Shown: positions 6,434-43,120 of the stretch, piece by piece
Layout of the letters: every line of letters starts with the position of its first letter
Numbering within the stretch: the first letter of the stretch is position 1
Source: a virus
Reading direction: 5' to 3' (one strand)
Virus record (IMG/VR): IMGVR_UViG_3300010354_000164
Coordinates: 1 to 44,177 of that record
Length of the DNA: 44,177 bases
Translations under genes and position numbers: made by a program
The notes under the pieces: generated by a model
What the model was told of the DNA's origin: nothing
The model's database searches: none
Seen by the model: the letters and a program-made list of their open reading frames with translations, nothing else

Positions 6434-8385
6434 GTTCATCCAATCGAAAGCCATATCTGACGGCAAGCAGCATCAATCAGCAGTTGCTTAATTTTGCATC
6501 TGACAATCTTGCAAATCAGCTTGAGTTGATTGTTGAGATTCAAGCTCCAGATGGTTCAATCATTCGAGCTTCAGACAGAAATAAATATGTTGGCGAGCAT
6601 TTCTACGAAGCTCTGACAAACTTCCCTGCTGTTGTGAGAACTGTCGGAGAATGGCTGACTGAAGGTCTTCTGTTCTCTGAAATGACGTTTGAGCTTTCAA
6701 ATGCAGATGGTCGATACAATAAGTTCCTTCCAGGTGGAGCGAACTTTGCAGGATGGGTCGGTCGAACAGTCACGGTCAAGATTGGCTTGAGAGATGTTCA
6801 ATCGAGCTTCTTTCAAATCTTCAAAGGAGAAGTTACAGAGGAAGCAGGTTTCAGCCGTTCAATCAAATCTGTGACCATTCGAGCGCGAGATGTTCTTGCG
6901 AAGAATAATGTTTCATTTCCCACAGGAGTCTTCACGCTTGCAGATTATCCGAAAGCATCTGATGATTTGCTAGGCAAAACGATTCCAGTCATCTACGGAG
7001 ATTGGACTGAACTGCTTTCTCCAATTACAGCCTCGATTCCATGCTATCCGGTAAACTCAAACGACATCTTTGTGAACAACGAAGAACTCACAGTGACAAT
7101 CGCTCTTGGCACTCCTGCAATCTTCTCAGCGTATCGGCACTGTCTTGAGGCGAATGACGAAGTTGATTTGATGACAGAGGGAACGCTTCCTACGGGAATC
7201 TCGCAAGGCAAGAAATACGTCAAAACGGTTCTTTCTGACTCGACGTTCACTCTCTCGGATACTCTCGGAGGGACAGCTCTCAATGCCTCTGGCACTCAAA
7301 GCGGAAGGCATTACATCACCAAGCATTCGAATGAACCACATGAGAATATCAAGCTCGTGATTTCATCAAATGCGTTGTTTTCGATTGACACGAGCAATCT
7401 TTACATGCGCCGTTCGAGTGTTCTTTATCAAGTGCCTGCTGCTGATGTTGTGAATATCTCGGTCAATAAGAACACATTTGAACTGAAGCAGAACTCGACG
7501 AACTGGTTCGAAGGTGGAAAGTATTACTTCAGTCGCTCAGATGAGTTCTTCATTCGCTGCAAAGGCAAGAATCTGAGCGGTTATGATAATAATGCAGTGG
7601 CTATCGCACAGGATATTCTAACAACCTACGGAGGCGTCTCTGGAGGCGATTTCGATGCTTCATGGGTGACCTTCAAAACCAAATCGTCTCCTGCAACTGG
7701 TGCGGTGGCTAACTGGCGAGCGAGAGCTTGGATTGGCGAACCAAAGAATACTATGGAGTATGCTTCGAATCTGCTTCAGCAGGTCAGGATTCAGCTGTTT
7801 CAGAACAAGGATGCAAAGCTCGACCTTCATGCTCTGCATTGGGACGAGTTCGATGACACTCCGTCTTATACGGTGAACAACTGGGACGTCGAACGCGATA
7901 GTCTGAGACCGACTCTCGATGTGCAGAATAACTTCAATCGGTCGAAGGGAACCTTTGGATTCGCTCCAGAAGCAAATCAATCAGCCTTTTCGACAGTCTA
8001 TTTCCGCAATCAGGCAGCAATCACTCAGAATGGCAGAATCCTGACCAGAGACTTGGACTATCCGAATCTGTATCGGCTTGCAGATGTTGAAATTCAGGTC
8101 AAAGAAACTCTGAAATTGGCATCAGGTTATCGAGAAGTCATCGAAGTGACCTTGACCAGCAGAGCCATTCTTCAGGATATTGGCGAATGGGTGCTTCTTG
8201 ATGTGCAGATTGGTGCTTCTCAGTTCGTGGCTGTTCCCTGTCTCATTCGAGAGATTGGATATTCGCCAGAAGGATTGAAATTGCCTGTGAAGCTCTGGTC
8301 TTTTGCTATGCTGCCTTTTGGAACATGGAATCCTGGCTACACAGGCATCGTTGGCGGTGCCTCTGCGACTATAACAGCGGAATGA
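6430..8385 (+). CDS. Tail hub / baseplate-like protein
   Basis: 651 residues, translationally coupled to the previous gene by ATGA at 6430-6433. The N-terminal 160 residues contain FELSNADGRYNKFLPGG and a following beta-barrel-like stretch with FKGEVTEEAGFS and SVTIRARDVL, a pattern common in phage tail-hub and minor tail proteins. The remainder is beta-rich and ends in a small-residue tail. Its place two genes after the tape measure matches the hub or Tal position, where a trimer closes the tail and organises the fibres. No peptidase motif is apparent. Structural role likely; exact role inferred. Confidence 0.55.
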   Translation: MSSSNRKPYLTASSINQQLLNFASDNLANQLELIVEIQAPDGSIIRASDRNKYVGEHFYEALTNFPAVVRTVGEWLTEGLLFSEMTFELSNADGRYNKFLPGGANFAGWVGRTVTVKIGLRDVQSSFFQIFKGEVTEEAGFSRSIKSVTIRARDVLAKNNVSFPTGVFTLADYPKASDDLLGKTIPVIYGDWTELLSPITASIPCYPVNSNDIFVNNEELTVTIALGTPAIFSAYRHCLEANDEVDLMTEGTLPTGISQGKKYVKTVLSDSTFTLSDTLGGTALNASGTQSGRHYITKHSNEPHENIKLVISSNALFSIDTSNLYMRRSSVLYQVPAADVVNISVNKNTFELKQNSTNWFEGGKYYFSRSDEFFIRCKGKNLSGYDNNAVAIAQDILTTYGGVSGGDFDASWVTFKTKSSPATGAVANWRARAWIGEPKNTMEYASNLLQQVRIQLFQNKDAKLDLHALHWDEFDDTPSYTVNNWDVERDSLRPTLDVQNNFNRSKGTFGFAPEANQSAFSTVYFRNQAAITQNGRILTRDLDYPNLYRLADVEIQVKETLKLASGYREVIEVTLTSRAILQDIGEWVLLDVQIGASQFVAVPCLIREIGYSPEGLKLPVKLWSFAMLPFGTWNPGYTGIVGGASATITAE

Positions 8386-23864: not shown

Positions 23865-24509
23865 ATGAAAATCACTATGTTGTCAGTTGAGAAAATTTCG
23901 CCCTACCAGCGTAACGCAAAACGGCATCCTCCAGAGCAAATTGAGAGTCTCGCGAAGCAAATTTCAGAAGTCGGTTTCACGCAACCAGTAGTCGTCGACA
24001 GTGATAATTCCTTGGTCATCGGTCACGGCAGGCTTGAAGCCGCTAAATTCCTTGGAATGGAAAAGGTTCCTGCTTTTATTTTGGACAAAAATCTCAGCAA
24101 AGAACGCGTCGCTGCGCTGCGTATATATGACAACAAAGTGTCAGAAACCGGATGGGATACGATGAAGTTGATTGAAGAACTTTCAAGCCTGAAAGAGCTT
24201 GACGTAGACCTATCTTTGACTGGGTTTCAAGAGTTTGAAATCAACTCGATGCTGGATGTCGACCTCGGAGATATCGGCTTTGATATTCCGGAAGACAGAA
24301 GTAAAGACGATTCAGAAACGAAAGAAACTTCTGAAGGTTTCAAACAAGTCCAACTTCTGTACAAACCAGATGAACATGTGAAATATCTGGAGTTCATTAA
24401 AAAGTACCAGCGTTATTACGGTTGTTCAGATAAAACAACGGCAGAAGTCGTACTGATGGCTTTGGAAACGGCTTGTAAAGTACACGAACAAGGTGATGAA
24501 CAAGAATGA
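23865..24509 (+). CDS. ParB/Srx-fold N-terminal domain protein
   Basis: 214 residues, ATG 23865 with AAGGAG upstream. VEKISPYQRNAKRHP, IGHGRLEAAKFLGMEKVPAFIL and RIYDNKVSE are the ParB-type nucleotide-binding core; GHGR is the phosphate-binding box. The C-terminal 80 residues are acidic and then helical, with no ParB HTH, so this is not a plasmid partition protein. ParB-domain proteins of this kind are frequent in phages next to DNA methylases and base-modification genes. Here it is coupled by ATGA to the TET/JBP gene. Possible roles are a CTP/ATP-driven switch or guide for DNA modification; this is inference. Confidence 0.8.
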   Translation: MKITMLSVEKISPYQRNAKRHPPEQIESLAKQISEVGFTQPVVVDSDNSLVIGHGRLEAAKFLGMEKVPAFILDKNLSKERVAALRIYDNKVSETGWDTMKLIEELSSLKELDVDLSLTGFQEFEINSMLDVDLGDIGFDIPEDRSKDDSETKETSEGFKQVQLLYKPDEHVKYLEFIKKYQRYYGCSDKTTAEVVLMALETACKVHEQGDEQE

Positions 24510-25387
24510 AAGTTCTAACATTCAAACCGCTGCAAACTGACAAACAACTCGATTCACAACTCGGTGATTTTCTGGATGAGCAGTCTTATGATTTGCTGAT
24601 AAGCAATAAGAACTTCACCGAACCAGTCGAGTTGAAAGACGCCATCACAAATAAAACTTTCGCTGTCTGGGTACCTTCTTCTTTACCGAAACAGTTTTGC
24701 CTTGATGCTTATAAGAGCTTGAGAGAGGCAGCCACGTCAACGACCAACCGTGGTATCGCATCTGGTAAAAGCGAAATGCGTATACGCAAAGACGGTTCCG
24801 TCAGCAAGACACGCATTGGAAACGCAGTTGATTCTTCAATTATCGGATATTTCGACAGATATCCGCGAATGAATTATTGTCGCGCTTGTGCTTGGAATTA
24901 TGCGCACCCGAGTGAATGGAAAAAAGCCATTCCGATGATTGAAGAAATCTCGAGGCTTTTTAAAACATATGCTTTCGAGAAATATAATTACCAAGCAACT
25001 GTTGCGGCTAAGGTAAAAAAAGACTGGCTCATCGGTGATTCCGTATTTTCTACGGTAACGATAAATAAGAACTTTCGTACAGCTTTACATAGGGACGGAT
25101 TGAATCTGGAAGATTCTTTCAGTGCTTTCAATGTCCTCAGAGCCGGTAATTTCATGGGTGGTAACTTGGTGTTTCCACGATACAGAATAGCTGTTTCTTC
25201 TGACAATCAAGATTTGTTGTTCTTCATGCCACAAGAACCACACGGCAATACAGAAATGAAATCGATCAATGGTAAGGCGTTTGAAAGAATCAGCCTTGTT
25301 TACTACCTTCGCGACAAAATGCGTGAATGCGGAACAGTTGAAGAAGAACTTGAACGAGGCCGCAGGTATCACGGAGGCCTTGAATAA
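24506..25387 (+). CDS. TET/JBP-family 2-oxoglutarate/Fe(II) DNA dioxygenase
   Basis: 293 residues, ATG 24506. The C-terminal double-stranded beta-helix has the ligand set NKNFRTALHRDG (His195, Asp197), EPHGN (His246) and ERISLVYY (Arg261 for 2-oxoglutarate). Upstream, MNYCRACAW and the segment up to YNYQATVAA match the region before the core in TET/JBP enzymes. NFMGGNLVFPRYRIAV fits the strand before the second His. These enzymes hydroxylate 5-methylcytosine (TET) or thymine (JBP) in DNA. The gene lies between the ParB-like gene (ATGA overlap) and a glycosyltransferase, the classic setting for phage base hypermodification. Which base is used cannot be told from sequence. Confidence 0.87.
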   Translation: MKVLTFKPLQTDKQLDSQLGDFLDEQSYDLLISNKNFTEPVELKDAITNKTFAVWVPSSLPKQFCLDAYKSLREAATSTTNRGIASGKSEMRIRKDGSVSKTRIGNAVDSSIIGYFDRYPRMNYCRACAWNYAHPSEWKKAIPMIEEISRLFKTYAFEKYNYQATVAAKVKKDWLIGDSVFSTVTINKNFRTALHRDGLNLEDSFSAFNVLRAGNFMGGNLVFPRYRIAVSSDNQDLLFFMPQEPHGNTEMKSINGKAFERISLVYYLRDKMRECGTVEEELERGRRYHGGLE

Positions 25388-25402: not shown

Positions 25403-26395
25403 ATGAAATCTATTGGCGTTGTGAGCTTCAATAAAATTCCAGACCACGACATGAGTACTGTGGCAACGGTCAGGCTCACGAAGTACATAGTGCAAAGACT
25501 AGCTTCAAAAGGCTTGTCAGTAACGTTGATAGATTCAGTAGAGAAATGTCATCCTAAAAAATATGATGCCTTAATAACGATCAATGGCGTGTTTTTGTTT
25601 TGCAATTTCAAGCAGGAATATGCTGCTTTGGTTCACATGAACAATCGTCATATTTGGGTCGGTCAAGACTACAATCCTAACATGTGGATTCCGGCCGTTT
25701 CTGGATATGACATCAAATCAAGGTTTTACGGCAAATCTGACGCCACCTTGATCGCAGCATATCAAAGGAAAACAGATAACCATAAAAAGATTCCTAAATA
25801 TAAATACTTAAACTGGAATCAGCTGACTTACATTCCAGGAATCCCAGAAAAACAATTCACAGTTCCTGGAGTTATGTATTACGGAGCCTTCAGAGAACAT
25901 CGTGAAGTGTACTTCCGTAAGTATTTCGTTGACGCGCCTTATCAGCTCAATATCGCCGCTCCGACACCGAAACATCAAAATAAGTTTTTGGCCTTGAACC
26001 CGAAAGCTAAGATATTTCAGTTCGAAAAATCTATCCCAGAAGAGGCCGGAAAGTTTCAATGCGCTCTTTACATTGAGGACACGTACTCACATGTGGGTAC
26101 TCCGAAAGGTATTTACAGTTCTCCTGCAAATCGCTTTTACGAATATCTGAGCGCAGGAGTTCTTACGTTTTTCGACAAGTCGGTCAAAGGTACATTCGAT
26201 ATTGCAGGCATCGACGTGTCTCCTTGGGTCGTTGACAGCAAGTTCGAGCTTGCCGAAAAGATGAAAAACCGGTCGCTGAAAGAAATGCAGCGCAAGCTCT
26301 ATCTGGAAAACGACTTCCGCAGAAAGCTGGACCAAGAGTTTGACCTCATCTTCCAGCAGGTTTTAGGAGACCTCATTTACATTCAAGGTGAATGA
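25403..26395 (+). CDS. Glycosyltransferase, GT-B-like, probable DNA-base glycosyltransferase
   Basis: 330 residues, ATG 25403 with AAGGA upstream. The N-terminal half is Rossmann-like (MKSIGVVSFNKIPDHDMSTV, LSVTLIDS). The C-terminal half carries GIYSSPANRFYEYLSAGV then LTFFD, the P-x-R-x-x-E-x-L-x-x-G-V pattern of sugar-nucleotide-binding domains in GT-B enzymes. No signal peptide or membrane span, so it should act in the cytoplasm. Placed 15 bases after the TET/JBP gene, it most likely adds a sugar to the hydroxymethyl group on DNA. An alternative is glycosylation of virion protein. The sugar donor is unknown. Confidence 0.72.
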   Translation: MKSIGVVSFNKIPDHDMSTVATVRLTKYIVQRLASKGLSVTLIDSVEKCHPKKYDALITINGVFLFCNFKQEYAALVHMNNRHIWVGQDYNPNMWIPAVSGYDIKSRFYGKSDATLIAAYQRKTDNHKKIPKYKYLNWNQLTYIPGIPEKQFTVPGVMYYGAFREHREVYFRKYFVDAPYQLNIAAPTPKHQNKFLALNPKAKIFQFEKSIPEEAGKFQCALYIEDTYSHVGTPKGIYSSPANRFYEYLSAGVLTFFDKSVKGTFDIAGIDVSPWVVDSKFELAEKMKNRSLKEMQRKLYLENDFRRKLDQEFDLIFQQVLGDLIYIQGE

Positions 26396-26589: not shown

Positions 26590-26598
26590 ATGAGCTTC

Positions 26599-26627
26599 GC
26601 CTCCATTGCAAGTTTTTGTAAGGAGGC
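26599..26627 (+). promoter_or_regulatory. Hairpin sequestering the ribosome site of the replication initiator
   Basis: GCCTCC (26599-26604) pairs with GGAGGC (26622-26627), and inside it TTGCAA (26106+500, i.e. 26606-26611) pairs with TTGTAA (26616-26621, one G-U). This leaves a one-base bulge and a four-base loop, about 12 paired bases in all. The 3' arm contains the GGAGG that would serve the TTG start at 26632, so the structure would hide the ribosome site and limit initiator synthesis unless opened. Confidence 0.6.
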
Positions 26628-26631
26628 TTCT

Positions 26632-27582
26632 TTGTCAAATAAGTTCAACCGCGAAATAGATATTTGGAAAATCTCTTCAGACTATTGCATCGTCGACCCA
26701 GATGTCGCTGCAAAACTTGGGAGCGTCGATGAAGCGATAGTTCTCCGAACGCTTTACAACCTTTGCCGGTTCAAAAGACAGAACTACGGCACGAGCTGGT
26801 ATCAAGGCTCCAAGACGTATTGGTTGACCAAGTTCAGCTGGCTTTCCGAGTCGAAGCTCAAAAGGGTGTTCTCCAACCTGAAAGAGCGTGGCCTTCTTGA
26901 AATCGACATCGCCCCAAGAACGGGCAATTCGTACAGAGTCAATGAAGAAAACCTGCAAAAACTGCTGTCGGAAACTTCTGAATCGGTTCAAAATGACCCG
27001 AATGAGAAAATTGATTCGGTTCAAAATGAACCGGTTAATCGGGTCAAAATGAACCGGCAATCGGGTCAAAATGAACCGGTTCCTCTATATAGATCCCTTA
27101 TGCATCCCGTATCTGACCCAGATGTTGCAGCGGCTGACGCCACCGCGCTCACGGTCAGTCAATTTGAGAACTCACGGCCAGATCCAAACTTGAAAACTAA
27201 ATCGCCGCAAAACACAGCAGAAACTTGGACCGCCTACTCGGAATGGTATGAAAAACGATACAAAGTGCAGCCAGCGCGAAACGCAAAAGTGAATAGTCAG
27301 TTAAAACAGTTCTGTGAGCGAGTCGGTTTTGAAGACGCTCCGAAAATAATCACATTTTATCTGCTTCAAAATGATTACTGGTACGTCAAACAGATGCACA
27401 CGATAGGCGTTGCTCTAGCTGAAGCTGAAAAGCTGGTGGCCGGTTACCGTCGCGGAACCCTTACGACCCGCCGAGAGGCTGAATACGTCGATAAAACTTC
27501 TTCAAAAACTTCTTTCATAAGCCAAATTTTGGATCTAATGGAATCAGAAGACGCTCAAAAAGGAGGCACCCATGAGCATTGA
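26632..27582 (+). CDS. Replication initiator-like protein (lambda O-like position) with internal origin
   Basis: 316 residues from TTG 26632, chosen for GGAGG five bases upstream; ATG 26590 in the same frame is the alternative but lacks a ribosome site. The N-terminal 100 residues are winged-helix-like (VDEAIVLRTLYNL, WLSESKLKRVFSNLKERGLL), as in phage and plasmid initiators. A low-complexity Gln/Asn linker (about 105-150) is encoded by the four iterons. The C-terminal region (TWTAYSEWYEKRYKVQP...) is helical and could load helicase partners. Iterons inside an initiator gene recall lambda O and its ori. Identification rests on this arrangement and the winged helix. Confidence 0.7.
   Translation: MSNKFNREIDIWKISSDYCIVDPDVAAKLGSVDEAIVLRTLYNLCRFKRQNYGTSWYQGSKTYWLTKFSWLSESKLKRVFSNLKERGLLEIDIAPRTGNSYRVNEENLQKLLSETSESVQNDPNEKIDSVQNEPVNRVKMNRQSGQNEPVPLYRSLMHPVSDPDVAAADATALTVSQFENSRPDPNLKTKSPQNTAETWTAYSEWYEKRYKVQPARNAKVNSQLKQFCERVGFEDAPKIITFYLLQNDYWYVKQMHTIGVALAEAEKLVAGYRRGTLTTRREAEYVDKTSSKTSFISQILDLMESEDAQKGGTHEH
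26983..27078. repeat. Four palindromic iterons inside the initiator gene: candidate replication origin
   Basis: Four 18-base units of the form TCGG(T/G)TCAAAATGA(A/C)CCG lie at 26983-27000, 27016-27033, 27039-27056 and 27061-27078. Each contains the dyad CGGTTCA-AAA-TGAACCG, perfect in copy 2 and with one mismatch in the others. Start-to-start distances are 33, 23 and 22 bases. The third copy is read in a different codon frame from the others, so the conservation is at DNA level. An A/T-rich stretch (CTATATAGAT) follows at about 27084. This matches lambda-type origins, where O binds iterons in its own gene. Confidence 0.75.
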
Positions 27583-28447
27583 ACGCAACGCCTTTGAATT
27601 CGTTCTAGCTGCTTTCGAGCAAGGCGGGACGCAACCGACCCCAGAACTCGCCAGACTGGTTCAGCTTACATTCGCGGCCGTAGACCAACGGCTTTTAATG
27701 CAAGCCGCTGTGGAAGCCATGAAAACCACCCGAGGCAGGCTCACGATTGGCGACCTTCAAAAGCAGGTGGACCTTTTAAGGCCGACTTCCGCTGAAGAAC
27801 ACCCGCCTGCCGAAGAAGCGTGGGCATTGTTGCCAAAGTCCGAGGACGAAACCGCCTTCATGACGGAAGAAATGAGAGACGCCTCATTAAGAGGCGATAT
27901 CAATTCGTACCTTGAACGGAACGATTTTATCGGAGCGGAACGAGCTTTCAAAAAACTATATGACGAAAACGTGTCAAAGAGCCGCGCTAGAGGCTTGAAG
28001 GCGACTTGGGAGGTAACCTTAGGTCACGATAGGTCCATGCGTATTGGCGGCCTTGAAAAAGCGGTTTCCAAGGGAGTCATCAATTCGGACAGAGCAATCG
28101 ACTTTGACCCAGAGAACGAAGCAATTTATCTTTCTGCTGAAAAACAGTTCATTTCAAAACTGCCAGAGGAAAAGCGTAAGGCTTTGACTGGTCGCGTAGA
28201 ATATCTTCAAAAAAGCATCCTTCAGCTTGTCGAAGCCAAACAAGAGCCAACAGACCCAGAAGACAAGCCGAGTGAAGCTCGGATGAATGACCCGTATGTG
28301 ATTCAACGCGCTGCAAGCCTTGGCCTCAGTCCATACGAGTATCTGGTTCGTCCATGTCCGCCAGAAGTGGCGAAAAAAGTTCATGCACAACTTGCAAAGC
28401 AATATGGCGTCAATCTGGAGCCGATGACTGCAAGGAAAGGATTCTGA
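27572..28447 (+). CDS. Replication-associated protein (possible helicase-loader role)
   Basis: 291 residues, ATG 27572 with AAGGAGG upstream, overlapping the initiator gene by 11 bases. Helical throughout. AEEAWALLPKSEDETAF and ERAFKKLYDENVSKSRARGL followed by TWEVTLGHD recall conserved segments I have seen in phage replication-region proteins. Its position directly behind the initiator matches lambda P, which delivers the host replicative helicase. No ATPase Walker motifs, so it is not a DnaC-type loader. The functional suggestion is from position; the gene itself is clear. Confidence 0.55.
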   Translation: MSIERNAFEFVLAAFEQGGTQPTPELARLVQLTFAAVDQRLLMQAAVEAMKTTRGRLTIGDLQKQVDLLRPTSAEEHPPAEEAWALLPKSEDETAFMTEEMRDASLRGDINSYLERNDFIGAERAFKKLYDENVSKSRARGLKATWEVTLGHDRSMRIGGLEKAVSKGVINSDRAIDFDPENEAIYLSAEKQFISKLPEEKRKALTGRVEYLQKSILQLVEAKQEPTDPEDKPSEARMNDPYVIQRAASLGLSPYEYLVRPCPPEVAKKVHAQLAKQYGVNLEPMTARKGF

Positions 28448-28450
28448 GAA

Positions 28451-28852
28451 ATGCTACAACGACACAAACTTGACCAAGTGATTCCTCATATGAATGGACA
28501 GCTCACGAAAGGCTATCCCAGACAAATCATTGTTCAGCAAAACATCGACGAACTTCGGGAGAAAGGCGTCTCTTTGCTTTGTGCCTGGAGTATCCGATTC
28601 GAAGTGCCAATGGACATGAGCTGTGACTGTGAAAAAACGATGTCCTGGCTGAGAAATCGTTTCATCGAATACAAATCAGCCGGATTCAAACTTATTGAAT
28701 TATCCGCAGAATTGCGCGAAACAAAACAGGACCGCGATTCAAAGGATTCTCCTACATGGGAGCCTTACTGGACTGGAGTCTTCGTCCATCCTCAACGGAA
28801 AGACCCGCGAAACATCGTCAAAGACTGTAGGCACTATCAATTCAAACCATGA
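28451..28852 (+). CDS. Protein of unknown function in the replication module
   Basis: 133 residues, ATG 28451 three bases after the preceding stop. Mixed alpha/beta with cysteines MDMSCDCEKTMSWL and Trp-rich TWEPYWTGVFVHP. The stop codon TGA is itself part of an ACCATGAT repeat like those that follow. Function unknown. Confidence 0.5.
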   Translation: MLQRHKLDQVIPHMNGQLTKGYPRQIIVQQNIDELREKGVSLLCAWSIRFEVPMDMSCDCEKTMSWLRNRFIEYKSAGFKLIELSAELRETKQDRDSKDSPTWEPYWTGVFVHPQRKDPRNIVKDCRHYQFKP

Positions 28853-28878
28853 TAGGCTTTCCTCAAGAATAACTTCTG

Positions 28879-28933
28879 GACCATGATCGGACCATGATTG
28901 AACCATGATCTGACCATGTTTGGACCATGAGGG
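28879..28933. repeat. Five tandem 11-bp repeats (consensus GACCATGATYG) in the promoter-like gap
   Basis: Consecutive 11-base units begin at 28879, 28890, 28901, 28912 and 28923, each containing (G/A)ACCATG. A further AACCATGAT copy lies at 28845-28853, 34 bases upstream, and AACCATG recurs at the start codon (28936-28942). The period of one helical turn places all sites on one face of the helix. This suggests cooperative binding of a regulator just upstream of the gene at 28940. Confidence 0.75.
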
Positions 28934-28939
28934 AAAACC

Positions 28940-29314
28940 ATGCTTCACGATACTGTTCGCAAAGCTTTGTCAGTCCCTTGCTCAAAAACAGCAAAGCTCT
29001 GTTTGGTCACAATGGCGGCTTATCTTCATCGAGCGCACTGGAAAGTGTCAGAGTTCTCTGATTTGACAGGCTCAGAAGCAAAGACCATTCGCATTGCTCT
29101 GAAAGAACTTTGCGTGTTGAAGCTGGTCAGCGTTGTCGGACAAACAGAAATCAACGCTTATCTTTATGCAATGAATCTTGATGCTCTCAATCGCATGGCA
29201 CAGCAAGACTTTGACTCGAAAAGCCAATCCGACTTAGCAGCTTTGTCGCGTCGAGTTCAAGCGAACCAGATTCCAGGCAAGAAGAAATCAACGCCTTCAA
29301 AAGCCAAGTTGTGA
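28940..29314 (+). CDS. Winged-helix-like protein downstream of the 11-bp repeats
   Basis: 124 residues from ATG 28940. AKLCLVTMAAYLHRAHWKV, then FSDLTGSEAKTIRIALKEL, then VLKLVSVVGQT form a helix-turn-helix with a wing, and the C-terminus is basic (PGKKKSTPSKAKL). Such proteins are common as phage regulators or replication accessories. The repeat array just upstream invites an autoregulation model, but this is inference. It ends inside the antisense 3' end of a leftward gene (128-base overlap). Confidence 0.55.
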   Translation: MLHDTVRKALSVPCSKTAKLCLVTMAAYLHRAHWKVSEFSDLTGSEAKTIRIALKELCVLKLVSVVGQTEINAYLYAMNLDALNRMAQQDFDSKSQSDLAALSRRVQANQIPGKKKSTPSKAKL

Positions 29315-31853: not shown

Positions 31854-33266
31854 TATCAAGTTGCCAATGCCATATGCCACATGGCAGAAGCATCTTATCA
31901 ACGAAAAAACACGCTTAATTGTCTTGGCGTTAGGGACCAAATCGGGAAAACACTTGGCGGAGCAGGGCGAATAGCGAATTTCAGCTTCTCTGCTCCGCGA
32001 GAACAATCGGCTCTGTATAGAATCATCGCACCGACTTACCAACAGGCAAGTATCACTTACAAGTATCTGGATCGGCTGTTTCCACAGACTTTGCCAGCAC
32101 AAGGCAACCTGACGCCTCAACAATACAAGCAAGCTATGGAGCAATGGGCAAAGATTACGCCAGAGCGTTCCGAGTCAAAGATGCGAATGCGCTGGAATCA
32201 TAATGGTGCGCAGATTCAATGCGTCCATGCTCAAGACCCGGAGCGCAGTATCGAAGGTGAAAGAACGCATGGGAATTTGATTGATGAGGCAGCGAAATGC
32301 TCTCAGCAGACCTTCGCATCAGTCATGTCGACAACTTCTCAAACAGGTGGATGGATTGCGTTAACATCAACGCCTCGAGGAAAGAACTTTTTCTACGATT
32401 TGTACCGACAATGCCAAGAACACATGGCATGGGCAGAAAAGCATCAGAAGCCGTATGAACAATTCTGCGCGACTGCAAGAACAATTGATTCTCCGTACGT
32501 CGATAAACGAGTCGTTGAACAAGCTCGCCTGTCCTTACCAGATAGACTATTCCGACAGCTTTACTTGGCTGAGTTCATGGATGATGGCTCCGTCTTTCTC
32601 GGTCATCGGGACTGCGTTGAAGGCGATTTGATTGAAGTTTATGGAAAGATGCAGGCATGGCAGGTGCCAGACGCCAAATCAAAGAAGGTTGTCATTGGAG
32701 CCGACTGGGCGAAAAGAACAGACTATGGGGTGTTTATCGCTTTTGAAGTCGGAACTTCCAGACCCAAAATCGTCGGCTTCAGAAGATTTCAAGGCCTCGA
32801 CTACAAGTTAGCCATTCGGGAACTCTACCAGTTTGGAGAACAGTTTAATGAAGTTCTCTTGATTCGTCATGACCGAACGGGTATCGGTGACGTAATCAAC
32901 GATCTGCTTTCCAGCTTCCCATATCCGATTGATCCTGTCGTTTTCACAAATGAAAGCAAATCTTCGATGGTGGACGCCTACATGGTCGCCATTGAGACAA
33001 GGAATCTAGTCTTCCCGAACTGGCCTGAGCTTATCAAAGAGCATGACAACTATGATGTGAAGATGAGTGTTCTCGGTAAGCCAACTTACTCCGCGCCTCC
33101 GGGGTTGCATGATGATATTGTGACCGCCTGCTTTCTGGCTTGGTCAGCAGTCCTTGAAACGCAAGACCGTGTTTTCGATGTGCGTTTTCTGGAAGACCTG
33201 CCGAAAACTGCTCTTTCTGTGGAGTCGTGGTACGCTTCTCTTGCCGATGAAAACGATGACTTCTGA
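31846..33266 (+). CDS. terL: Terminase large subunit, requiring a -1 frameshift inside Walker A
   Basis: Start ATG 31846 with GAGGA at 31836-31840. The first frame encodes residues 1-35 (MFNIKLPMPYATWQKHLINE..., then VLALGTKSGK) and then meets TAG at 31972. A -1 slip at 31944-31950 continues as TLGGAGRIANF to TGA 33266, 473 residues in total, restoring an exact Walker A (GTKSGKT). Walker B and catalytic Glu: GNLIDEAAK (Asp147, Glu148). Coupling motif: TSTPRGKN. RNase H-type nuclease: VIGADWAKRTDYG (Asp287) and LHDDIVTA (Asp423/424). It translocates and cuts DNA at the portal. The ATG at 31881 in the second frame gives no terminase-like N-terminus. Confidence 0.88.
31944..31998 (+). promoter_or_regulatory. 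Candidate programmed -1 frameshift signal in terL
   Basis: Heptamer G GGA AAA at 31944-31950, in the correct phase for the upstream frame (TCG GGA AAA CAC). A six-base spacer follows, then a perfect 9-bp stem GCGGAGCAG (31957-31965) with CTGCTCCGC (31990-31998) around a 24-base loop. The zero-frame stop lies within the loop (31972-31974). This is the standard bacterial -1 frameshift layout. The alternative is a lost A in an A5 run, by mutation or sequencing error. Confidence 0.65.
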
Positions 33267-40355: not shown

Positions 40356-43120
40356 TGGCAGTTCAAAATTATCAACTTCTTATTTGGGACGGTACGAAGC
40401 AAAAACGTATCGACTCCGAAACAACAGAACTCAAACTCGGCAAGCTGTCTCTTGCAGTCCTCGGTGATGTCGAAGCAGCTTTCGCTCAAGAAGCTATCGA
40501 CCGCGCTGCTGGTGACGCCTCGACGTTGGCATCTGCGAAAGCATACGCTGATGCTGGTATCGCAGCTGCGTCTGGTGGTCTTAGCGGTGACATCTCTGAT
40601 TTGCAGGCTGACTTGGCTCAAGAGATTCTCGACCGTCAGTCAGGCGATACATCGACACTGAACTCGGCAAAAGCATACGCTGACCAGAAGATTACTGACT
40701 TGGTTGGTGCTGCTCCTGCGACTCTCGATACGTTGAAAGAGATTGCAGATGCAATCAACAACGATGCAAGCATCGCCGCGACCCTGACAAGCCAAATCGG
40801 CGCTGTTCAGTCGAATCTGACAACTGAGATTTCGAATCGTCAGTCAGGCGACAACGCTCTCGATGCTCGCTTGGATGTTCTCGAAACAGACCCAACAACG
40901 AAGACCTACGTTGACAACCAACTGGCTACGCTTTCGTTTGGTATTGGTCAGACAAAGTTTGTTGCAAAAGATGGTAACGATGTTTCTGGAGACGGAACGC
41001 TTCGCAAGCCATTCGCATCTATTACAGCCGCATTGGCTGCAATCACTGACGCTTCGCCGAGCAAGCGTTATGTGGTCAAGGTCGGCCCTGGTGCATACTC
41101 AGAAGCCGGAATCGCTCTCAAGGCGAACGTGTTCGTTGTCGGTGATATGCAAGACGCCGTTCGAATCACTGCGCCAGTCACAATGGCTTCTGACTTCAGC
41201 GGCTCGGCAGACAACCGCTCTGGATTCTCGAACGTCACATTGCTCTCAGCTGTGAACTTTGACTGGTCGACTGTTACATCAGCTGCCGGCAAACTTTACT
41301 TGAATGAAGTGGTCTTCGCTTCGACGCTTCGCTTGTATGGTCACAACAACGCGATTGCTCAAGCTCAGATTCAGAGCTGCGAAATCTTCGGAACGATGAC
41401 CGTCAGCGGTATCAATGTTGGTATCCATTCGAACAACATTCACTACGGCGAAATCAAGCTCGACCAACATCCTAATGGTGGAATGGCGACCATTCTTGCT
41501 GCTTCTGGCGGTAAGGCTGCGAAGATTACTCTCACAACCACAGTCAATGACTTCAATCGTCGCTGTTCGTTGTTTGCTTACGCTGGATTCTTCATCGACG
41601 AACTCATTGTTAGCGGTGCATCGTCTTATGCAGACTTGTCGGAAAGTTCTGTTCCACGCGACCCTGCAAAATTGACTTCGCCTAACAGCGGAAATGTTGT
41701 TTACCTGACGACAACTGTTCCTCATAAGACGAACGAGAGAAATGTTGGTCAGCCTGGACGCCAATACCTGTACAACTTCGCCTATGTTCACGCTTCAACT
41801 CAGAGCGATTTGTACGTTATCTCGATGGGTGGCGATTACGCTGCTGACTCTGCTGGTCGCGGAATCAATATCGAAGCCGATAGCTATGGCTTGCTTCAGA
41901 ATGTGAACGGTGGAGACATCAATCTCGTCACTGCTGCGACAAGTGGAACAGGCGTTCGCGGTAAAATCAAACTCTCTGGCCGCCAGATTGATGTTGATTC
42001 TGCCAAGATTGTGAATGTTGCAAATGGCGTTGATGCTGCTGATGCAGTGAACAAGTCTCAGCTCGATGCTGAAGCCTCTGCTCGCGCTTCTGCTGATACA
42101 ACTCTGGCTGGTAGCATCAGCACTGTTTCGAGTGGCTTGGCTCAGGAAATCCTCGAAAGAGCAGCGGCTGTTTCTGGTGAGGCTTCCGCTCGCGTTGCAG
42201 GCGATGCAGCAACATTGGCTTCTGCTCAATCGTATGCTGACGGCAAAGTCTCCGCATTGGTGAACTCGGCTCCAGCGGTTCTCGATACTCTGAAAGAACT
42301 GGCTGACGCTCTTGGTTCTGACCCGAACTTTGCAACTACTGTTGCTGGTCAAATTGGCACTGTCTCGGCAGCTGTCACAGCTGAAGTGACTCGCGCAACT
42401 GGTGCAGAATCTGCTCTCCAGGGTGAAGTCGATGCAGTCGAATCTGGTCTTGCTCAGGAATTGCTGGATAGAGCTGCCGCTGATACAGCATTGCAAGGAA
42501 GCATCAGCACTGTTTCTTCTGAACTTGCTCAAGAATTGCTCGACCGCGCGGCGGCCGACACTGCTTTGCAAGGTGCTGTTGATGATGTTGCTGCTGATTT
42601 GGCTCAAGAGCTTTTGGATCGTGCCGCTGCTGATACAGCTCTCCAAGGAGCGATTGATGACGTTGCAGCTGATCTTGCTCAAGAACTTCTTGACCGCGCT
42701 TCGGCAGTCTCGGCTGTTCAAGGCGAAGTCGATGCTCTTGAGTTGGTTGTTGCTGACCTAAAACTCATCAGCTTGACTGCTTCTGAAGCAATCTCTGCTG
42801 GTCAGGTTTGCTACATCAAATCGAACGGCGAAGTGGCAAAAGCAATCGCAACTGTCGACCTGTCTGATGCTCAGCTTGTGGTGGCTTCGGCTTCCGTGGC
42901 TTCTGGAGCTGCCGGCAAGTTCTACGTTGTTGAAGGCTCAGTGATTGGCGGCTTCTCAAGCCTGACACCTGGAAAGAAATACTTTGTGTCTGCTGCCACG
43001 GCCGGTGCCGTGGTATCAAGCACAGCAGGTTTCGCAACCGGGAACTCGGTCTACACTGTTGGCCGCGCGGTCTCTGCAACTCAAATCAGCTTCGCGCCTG
43101 TCTTTGAGTTCGAGTATTGA
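40355..43120 (+). CDS. Long fibre protein with beta-helix and coiled-coil repeats, in the head module
   Basis: 921 residues. Residues about 45-195: coiled coil with AKAYADQKITDLVGAAPATL. About 200-260: FVAKDGNDVSGDGTLRKPF, the start of a pectate-lyase-like right-handed beta-helix that runs to about 560. ANGVDAADAVNKSQLDAEAS is followed by a second copy of the coiled-coil unit (AQSYADGKVSALVNSAPAVL). Then come four near-identical 25-residue units beginning LAQELLDRA (about 695-790). The last 110 residues form a capping domain (GKFYVVEGSV, GKKYFVSAATAGAV). This is a trimeric fibre architecture. Its place after the capsid genes suggests a head fibre rather than a tail fibre, though this is inference. 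Confidence 0.7.
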   Translation: MAVQNYQLLIWDGTKQKRIDSETTELKLGKLSLAVLGDVEAAFAQEAIDRAAGDASTLASAKAYADAGIAAASGGLSGDISDLQADLAQEILDRQSGDTSTLNSAKAYADQKITDLVGAAPATLDTLKEIADAINNDASIAATLTSQIGAVQSNLTTEISNRQSGDNALDARLDVLETDPTTKTYVDNQLATLSFGIGQTKFVAKDGNDVSGDGTLRKPFASITAALAAITDASPSKRYVVKVGPGAYSEAGIALKANVFVVGDMQDAVRITAPVTMASDFSGSADNRSGFSNVTLLSAVNFDWSTVTSAAGKLYLNEVVFASTLRLYGHNNAIAQAQIQSCEIFGTMTVSGINVGIHSNNIHYGEIKLDQHPNGGMATILAASGGKAAKITLTTTVNDFNRRCSLFAYAGFFIDELIVSGASSYADLSESSVPRDPAKLTSPNSGNVVYLTTTVPHKTNERNVGQPGRQYLYNFAYVHASTQSDLYVISMGGDYAADSAGRGINIEADSYGLLQNVNGGDINLVTAATSGTGVRGKIKLSGRQIDVDSAKIVNVANGVDAADAVNKSQLDAEASARASADTTLAGSISTVSSGLAQEILERAAAVSGEASARVAGDAATLASAQSYADGKVSALVNSAPAVLDTLKELADALGSDPNFATTVAGQIGTVSAAVTAEVTRATGAESALQGEVDAVESGLAQELLDRAAADTALQGSISTVSSELAQELLDRAAADTALQGAVDDVAADLAQELLDRAAADTALQGAIDDVAADLAQELLDRASAVSAVQGEVDALELVVADLKLISLTASEAISAGQVCYIKSNGEVAKAIATVDLSDAQLVVASASVASGAAGKFYVVEGSVIGGFSSLTPGKKYFVSAATAGAVVSSTAGFATGNSVYTVGRAVSATQISFAPVFEFEY

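Follow-up and report, generated by a model that had tools for sequence, protein, structure and literature searches.

Predicted replication origin within the initiator gene of a phage from a poorly sampled lineage, and a putative correspondence between helix residues and half-site bases in related initiators

The window (the whole stretch of DNA analysed, 44,177 bases, positions 1 to 44,177 of IMG/VR record IMGVR_UViG_3300010354_000164) has four dyad repeats inside its replication initiator gene. By far the best explanation for these is a replication origin that lies within the initiator gene and is bound by the N-terminal domain of the gene's own product, and an origin is predicted here with high confidence. 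In-gene origins of this design are already known, as in phage lambda, where the O protein binds iterons in its own gene and opens the origin. The features of the region are as follows.

26590..27582, + strand: replication initiator gene, from PHROG matches; 330 aa from the first ATG
26671..26979, + strand: N-terminal winged-helix DNA-binding domain, residues 28–130, from an AlphaFold2 model
26848..26886, + strand: predicted recognition helix, residues 87–99, with Ser88 and Lys91, from the model, covariation and a held-out test
26983..27000, + strand: iteron 1, TCGGTTCAAAATGACCCG, dyad 6/7
27016..27033, + strand: iteron 2, TCGGTTCAAAATGAACCG, perfect 7-3-7 dyad
27039..27056, + strand: iteron 3, TCGGGTCAAAATGAACCG, dyad 6/7, other codon frame
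27061..27078, + strand: iteron 4, TCGGGTCAAAATGAACCG, dyad 6/7
27093..27114, + strand: weak 11-bp direct repeat, ATCCCTTATGC/ATCCCGTATCT, 8/11, just 3′ of the iterons
27202..27564, + strand: C-terminal helical domain, from a phrog_11527 match at residues 127–317
27572..28447, + strand: next gene, in the position of lambda P; phrog_6028 (function of family unknown)

The original prediction placed four TCGG(T/G)TCAAAATGA(A/C)CCG units at positions 26983–27078 inside the initiator gene, each a 7-3-7 dyad and one of them out of frame, and this is borne out with all positions exact. A scan of the window gives four exact matches to TCGGKTCAAAATGAMCCG, with starts at 26983, 27016, 27039 and 27061. 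When up to three mismatches are allowed, the window has six matches vs. 0.19 expected from shuffles, and the sole match outside of the array is a three-mismatch copy at 7226. The dyad is CGG(T/G)TCA-AAA-TGA(A/C)CCG (17-bp duplex sequence CGGTTCAAAATGAACCG), and its arms pair at 7/7 positions in copy 2 and at 6/7 in copies 1, 3 and 4. Start-to-start spacings are 33, 23 and 22 bp. Copies 2–4 are ~2.1–2.2 helical turns apart, which agrees with the two turns that had been proposed. Comparison of codon frames shows that copies 1, 2 and 4 have a common frame and that copy 3 is in another. An A/T-rich run, said to follow the iterons, is not present: G+C content is 56% over the 70 nt past the last copy, and the region of lowest stability in the vicinity is at 27342, ~260 bp beyond the last iteron. 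GC skew, suggested as a check for an origin near 27 kb, gives no clear or usable signal.

The repeats are independent of the protein sequence that they encode. When the linker was recoded 20,000 times, with the peptide unchanged and codons drawn according to local usage, the repeat score is 95 for the actual sequence vs. 65 ± 4.6 (maximum 83) for recoded linkers, and 25 of the 28 arm positions are paired vs. 14.5 ± 1.8 (maximum 22); 0/20,000 recodings reach the observed value in either case. This result, together with the mixed codon frames of the repeats in relatives, upholds the earlier claim that selection acts on the DNA and not on the peptide. The refuting case, a relative that keeps the peptide and has lost the DNA repeats, was not seen, and L022 and L023, two relatives with another linker, keep DNA repeats at this location.

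Residue numbers used here are counted from the ATG at 26590. A strong ribosome-binding site (AAGGAGG, 26620–26626), five bases before the TTG at 26632, suggests that this TTG is a likelier start than the ATG. The initiator displays matches to PHROG families of a DnaD-like helicase loader (6493), replication initiation proteins (428 and 11233) and an O-like protein (678). The matches to phrog_6493 (E-value = 1.3e-9) and phrog_428 (E-value = 1.9e-9) are to profiles of the DnaD-like/O-like family. No family was found for the protein in Pfam at an E-value of 0.001, RepA_N (PF06970) included, nor in NCBIfam, and a PDB sequence search gave no chain for the window initiator and none for lambda O.

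A full-length AlphaFold2 model, which is poor outside of the DNA-binding domain, shows a winged helix with high confidence at residues 33–128, a disordered region at 130–210 that holds the iteron codons, and a helical C-terminal part of low confidence. The domain modelled alone has a mean pLDDT of 88. N-terminal domains (NTDs) of staphylococcal plasmid RepA proteins are at ranks 1, 2, 4 and 6 among its top solved matches (4pql, 4pt7, 5kbj and 4pta; VIA-align 2), with Z 9.4–10.8 over 94–97 residues and rmsd 2.7–2.8. Because the winged helix is a widespread fold and unrelated chains score nearly as well (Z 9.4), the model gives moderate support for a RepA NTD winged-helix fold. The C-terminal domain presumably recruits helicase/primase. 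The product of the next gene (27572..28447) is, by position alone, a candidate helicase loader, and the order of an initiator followed by a gene of this type is also found in L005 and L022.

The relative L005 has 60–64% identity to the window over the part compared. It displays four dyads spaced 33, 23 and 22 bp, with the third copy out of frame, as in the window. The third copy is CGGCTCA-ATC-TGAACCG, in which ATC replaces AAA at the centre and the dyad is retained. Short direct repeats are also found past the iterons in relatives (a 12-bp pair with 11/12 identity in L005 and a 14-bp pair with 13/14 in L022), and the weak repeat at 27093..27114 is a possible counterpart of these.

L022 and L023 have a C-terminal domain with 62% identity over residues 203–328 and a different N-terminus. 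Their linker carries three copies of TAGTGCAACCATTGCA, spaced 23 and 22 bp, at the place of the window's iterons. F116-like and other Pseudomonas phages have the C-terminal domain alone in common with the window, and their linker repeats differ. Since another N-terminus goes with other repeats in spite of a shared C-terminus, the repeats travel with the DNA-binding domain. Sequence comparison indicates that these relatives exchange the C-terminal domain independently of the DNA-binding one.

Linker repeats unrelated to those of the window, mostly ~22–23 bp apart, are present in C-terminal-only relatives at L014 1478–1651, L013 1483–1636, L016 1512–1652 and L017 1555–1683; examples are GGTCGGAAAAAAATCCG, TGCGGAAAACCCGCA and ACCCCCGCAGCAGCTGC. 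A single exact iteron match in L007 (3853–3882, the perfect palindrome TTCGGGTCAAAATGACCCGAA) was rejected as probably due to chance; it is located within a ParB-like gene of an unrelated element and has no periodic partner.

The closest parallels in known systems are in-gene origins. Lambda O also has four dyad iterons in its gene at the linker, spaced 20, 24 and 23 bp and in several codon frames. The lambda iteron centre, CAAAA(C/T)G, resembles that of the window, and Gln-Asn-Glu is likewise encoded by lambda iteron 1. However, the outer half-site is different and the window is without the adjacent A/T-rich tract. TIGR01610 (phage_O_Nterm) does not match the window protein at an E-value of 0.01 (lambda O itself gives 5e-39), and alignment of the window domain profile to lambda O by hhalign gives a probability of 0.1%. 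Thus the window protein is not a member of the lambda O family by sequence. The lambda-like origin of the original prediction therefore stands as an architecture, with four iterons in the initiator gene, and does not stand as membership in the lambda O family. Gene 15 of phi80, which is O-like, likewise has four annotated initiator-binding sites within the gene, but the site, TTCCCGAAAACGGGAA, and its shorter spacing are unlike those of the window.

The pSK41 RepA protein binds four boxes in its own gene via its NTD, deletion of its origin-encoded linker is tolerated in trans, and in a chimeric pPR9 Rep the NTD and origin have been exchanged as one block with the C-terminal domain kept (PMC5703833). 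RepA of the pSK41 type (RepA_N) has a winged-helix NTD fold like that modelled for the window (Z 10.8) and four sites inside rep, and the pPR9 block exchange resembles the difference between the window and L022. RepA_N proteins are plasmid initiators with a C-terminal domain that binds DnaG primase, whereas the window is from a phage and shows no Pfam RepA_N match. Judged from sequence, the window system would work like oriLambda and pSK41 RepA, and by profile its protein is a DnaD-like/O-like phage initiator.

Initiators of this family, e.g. those of fPfSau02 of Staphylococcus and HannyBb of Escherichia, are related to the window protein by PHROG match and alignment, and they have the core G(G/T)TCAAAATGA and the 22–24 bp spacing found in the window. 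All 80 of the viral loci fetched with a related domain have 2–6 same-core sites in mixed codon frames, spaced 23–24 or 46 bp. The majority of those related to a Staphylococcus phage protein carry same-core sites with different outer bases. The same pattern is found in annotated phages of Klebsiella, Pseudomonas, Erwinia, Bacillus, Lactobacillus and Listeria, and extends to 80 genome loci, mostly of Bacillota. Relatives of the domain span several phyla and show CA-N3-TG dyads in the linker, 22–24 bp apart and in mixed frames. At least two periodic near-dyad CA-N3-TG sites are present within 300 nt past the helix in 62/104 distinct genes, vs. 0/103 genes for a control region located 450 nt farther along. 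The window displays this family trait, with CA-N3-TG dyads 22–24 bp apart after the DNA-binding domain (copies 2–4). Its domain has ~21–33% identity to the better-sampled relatives. No relatives came out of an initial scan of genomes with the pair from the window itself, and an alignment of highly diverse domains was nowhere conserved enough to be used for scanning.

Most relatives, e.g. L188, L190, L193 and L238, display tandem 12-bp repeats with a CAGAGA motif (ACTACTACAGAG), 8–9 nt past the last iteron. Repeats of this type follow the iterons in 39/43 relatives and in 16/18 loci of a held-out set, and the 6-mer is found in the control region in 0/43. A common codon frame is shared by 87/96 copies, and the GAG:GAA ratio is 90:24 in the repeats vs. 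321:613 elsewhere in the same open reading frames. The opposite strand is TnnT-rich, and resembles the TnnT recognition element of Bacillus subtilis DnaD (PMC10201434). The CAGAGA repeat may serve in unwinding or in the binding of a loader. While the repeat is usual in DnaD-like/O-like phage initiators, if perhaps not a defining trait of them, a search after the iterons of the window shows it to be absent there.

The relation between the DNA-binding domain and its sites was analysed with 43 non-redundant domains (<80% identity). Detection of sites assumed a CA-N3-TG core and a spacing of 22–24 bp or double, and family members with another core, e.g. BcepMigl, fall outside the rule. In the predicted recognition helix, residues 88 and 91 show the strongest covariation of all domain columns with half-site bases h1, h2 and h4. 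Lys91 occurs with a purine at h4 and Arg91 with T in 41/43 domains (Fisher p = 5e-10; permutation and Fisher values ignore the relatedness of the domains). On a tree from which the helix was left out, residue 91 has changed between Lys and Arg at least nine times. Nine independent pairs can be compared; eight agree, none oppose and one shows no difference (sign test p = 0.008), and well-supported branches carry just three of the nine. In the held-out set, which consists of 18 newly fetched non-redundant loci, Lys corresponds to a purine at h4 in 10/10 and Arg to T in 6/8 (16/18 in total, Fisher p = 0.0015), and Asp88 corresponds to G at h1 in 5/5. As the helix codons are ~100 nt or more from the sites, overlapping coding is not the cause of the covariation. 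Ser88 and Lys91 of the window are consistent with its own CGG(T/G)T half-site, as expected from the rule.

These data somewhat favour a reading in which initiator genes of phages and prophages across phyla carry both a reader and the word that it reads. Residue 91 would specify base 4, with Lys for a purine and Arg for T, and residue 88 would specify bases 1–2, e.g. with Asp for G, Ser for T and Asn for C. No earlier report of the recognition rule or of the CAGAGA element was found in the openly licensed literature searched, and both may be new. If the code is true, origin specificity, and hence the compatibility of coexisting phages, could be read from the protein. As a single gene holds both protein and target, every member of the family provides a matched protein-DNA pair. 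Such pairs make the choice of origin by initiators, and a one-step change of specificity by domain swap, testable from sequence.

In the proposed origin, the four dyads would be the initiator-binding iterons of phage replication, located at the codons for an unstructured linker between the two domains of the initiator. Each dyad would be read by the N-terminal winged-helix domain, which presumably acts as a dimer, through the helix that holds Ser88 and Lys91. Since copies 2–4 are about two helical turns apart, proteins bound to them would stack along one side of the double helix and put it under strain, which may lead to strand opening. The C-terminal domain, probably together with the product of the next gene, would then bring in the replicative helicase. 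Points against an origin are the missing adjacent A/T-rich tract, the missing CAGAGA repeat, the lack of a clear GC skew and the divergent domain.

Three other readings of the array can be weighed against an in-gene origin. The repeats could have been selected as a protein repeat (Gln-Asn-Glu-Pro), with the DNA similarity as a by-product; three of the four copies indeed encode S-(V/G)-Q-N-(D/E)-P in one frame. Copy 3, however, encodes RVKMNR, synonymous recoding does not regenerate the DNA pattern, and relatives have the same DNA in mixed codon frames. The linker is also predicted to be disordered, and in pSK41 RepA the equivalent segment is not needed in trans (PMC5703833). Codon frames and recoded linkers thus contradict this reading, and we give it almost no weight. 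No more credible is that the array is a relic in a phage that now uses another initiator or origin. The divergent domain and the lack of downstream CAGAGA would fit a relic, but the four copies are near-identical with intact dyads, the gene is open and the spacing is kept in L005.

The dyads might instead be bound for control of expression or copy number, as an operator or roadblock, with the true origin elsewhere, e.g. at 11-bp repeats near 28.9 kb. This is improbable, if less so than the other two. A second array is present at 28878–28935, upstream of a small open reading frame that weakly matches a replication initiation family, and the in-gene iterons are without an A/T-rich tract. On the other hand, the 11-bp array is not found at the matching place in L005, where the in-gene iterons are conserved, its exact pattern does not occur in other viral contigs, and the in-gene sites of lambda, phi80 and pSK41 are annotated or proven origin sites. 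An origin at the in-gene iterons thus remains the preferred reading.

The second array itself (28846–28945, core 28878–28935) consists of about five tandem copies of the 11-bp GGACCATGATC, with looser copies on both sides. It lies between open reading frames, just before that at 28940–29314, which has the weak match to a replication initiation family. An exact search of viral contigs with a 21-mer of this array did not find it elsewhere. The array is possibly an operator or a second binding array.

The large terminase (31881–33266) has as its best matches in the phage collection Tunturiibacter phage Tunturi_4 (~30%) and Thermus P23-45-like phages (~25%); terminases of metagenomic relatives are 85–88% identical. 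By these sequence identities the phage belongs to a poorly sampled lineage. A predicted origin is now available for a lineage whose terminase has at most ~30% identity to any phage in the collection searched.

Two further regions of the window were observed. A TET/JBP-type oxygenase gene is at 24506–25387 (Pfam E-value = 6.9e-21), and it is followed by an open reading frame of 330 aa without family matches (25403–26395), directly upstream of the initiator gene; the two are a possible base-modification pair. Four 75-bp direct repeats at 42404–42754, in the coding region of a 921-aa open reading frame, are probably the coiled repeats of a tail protein.
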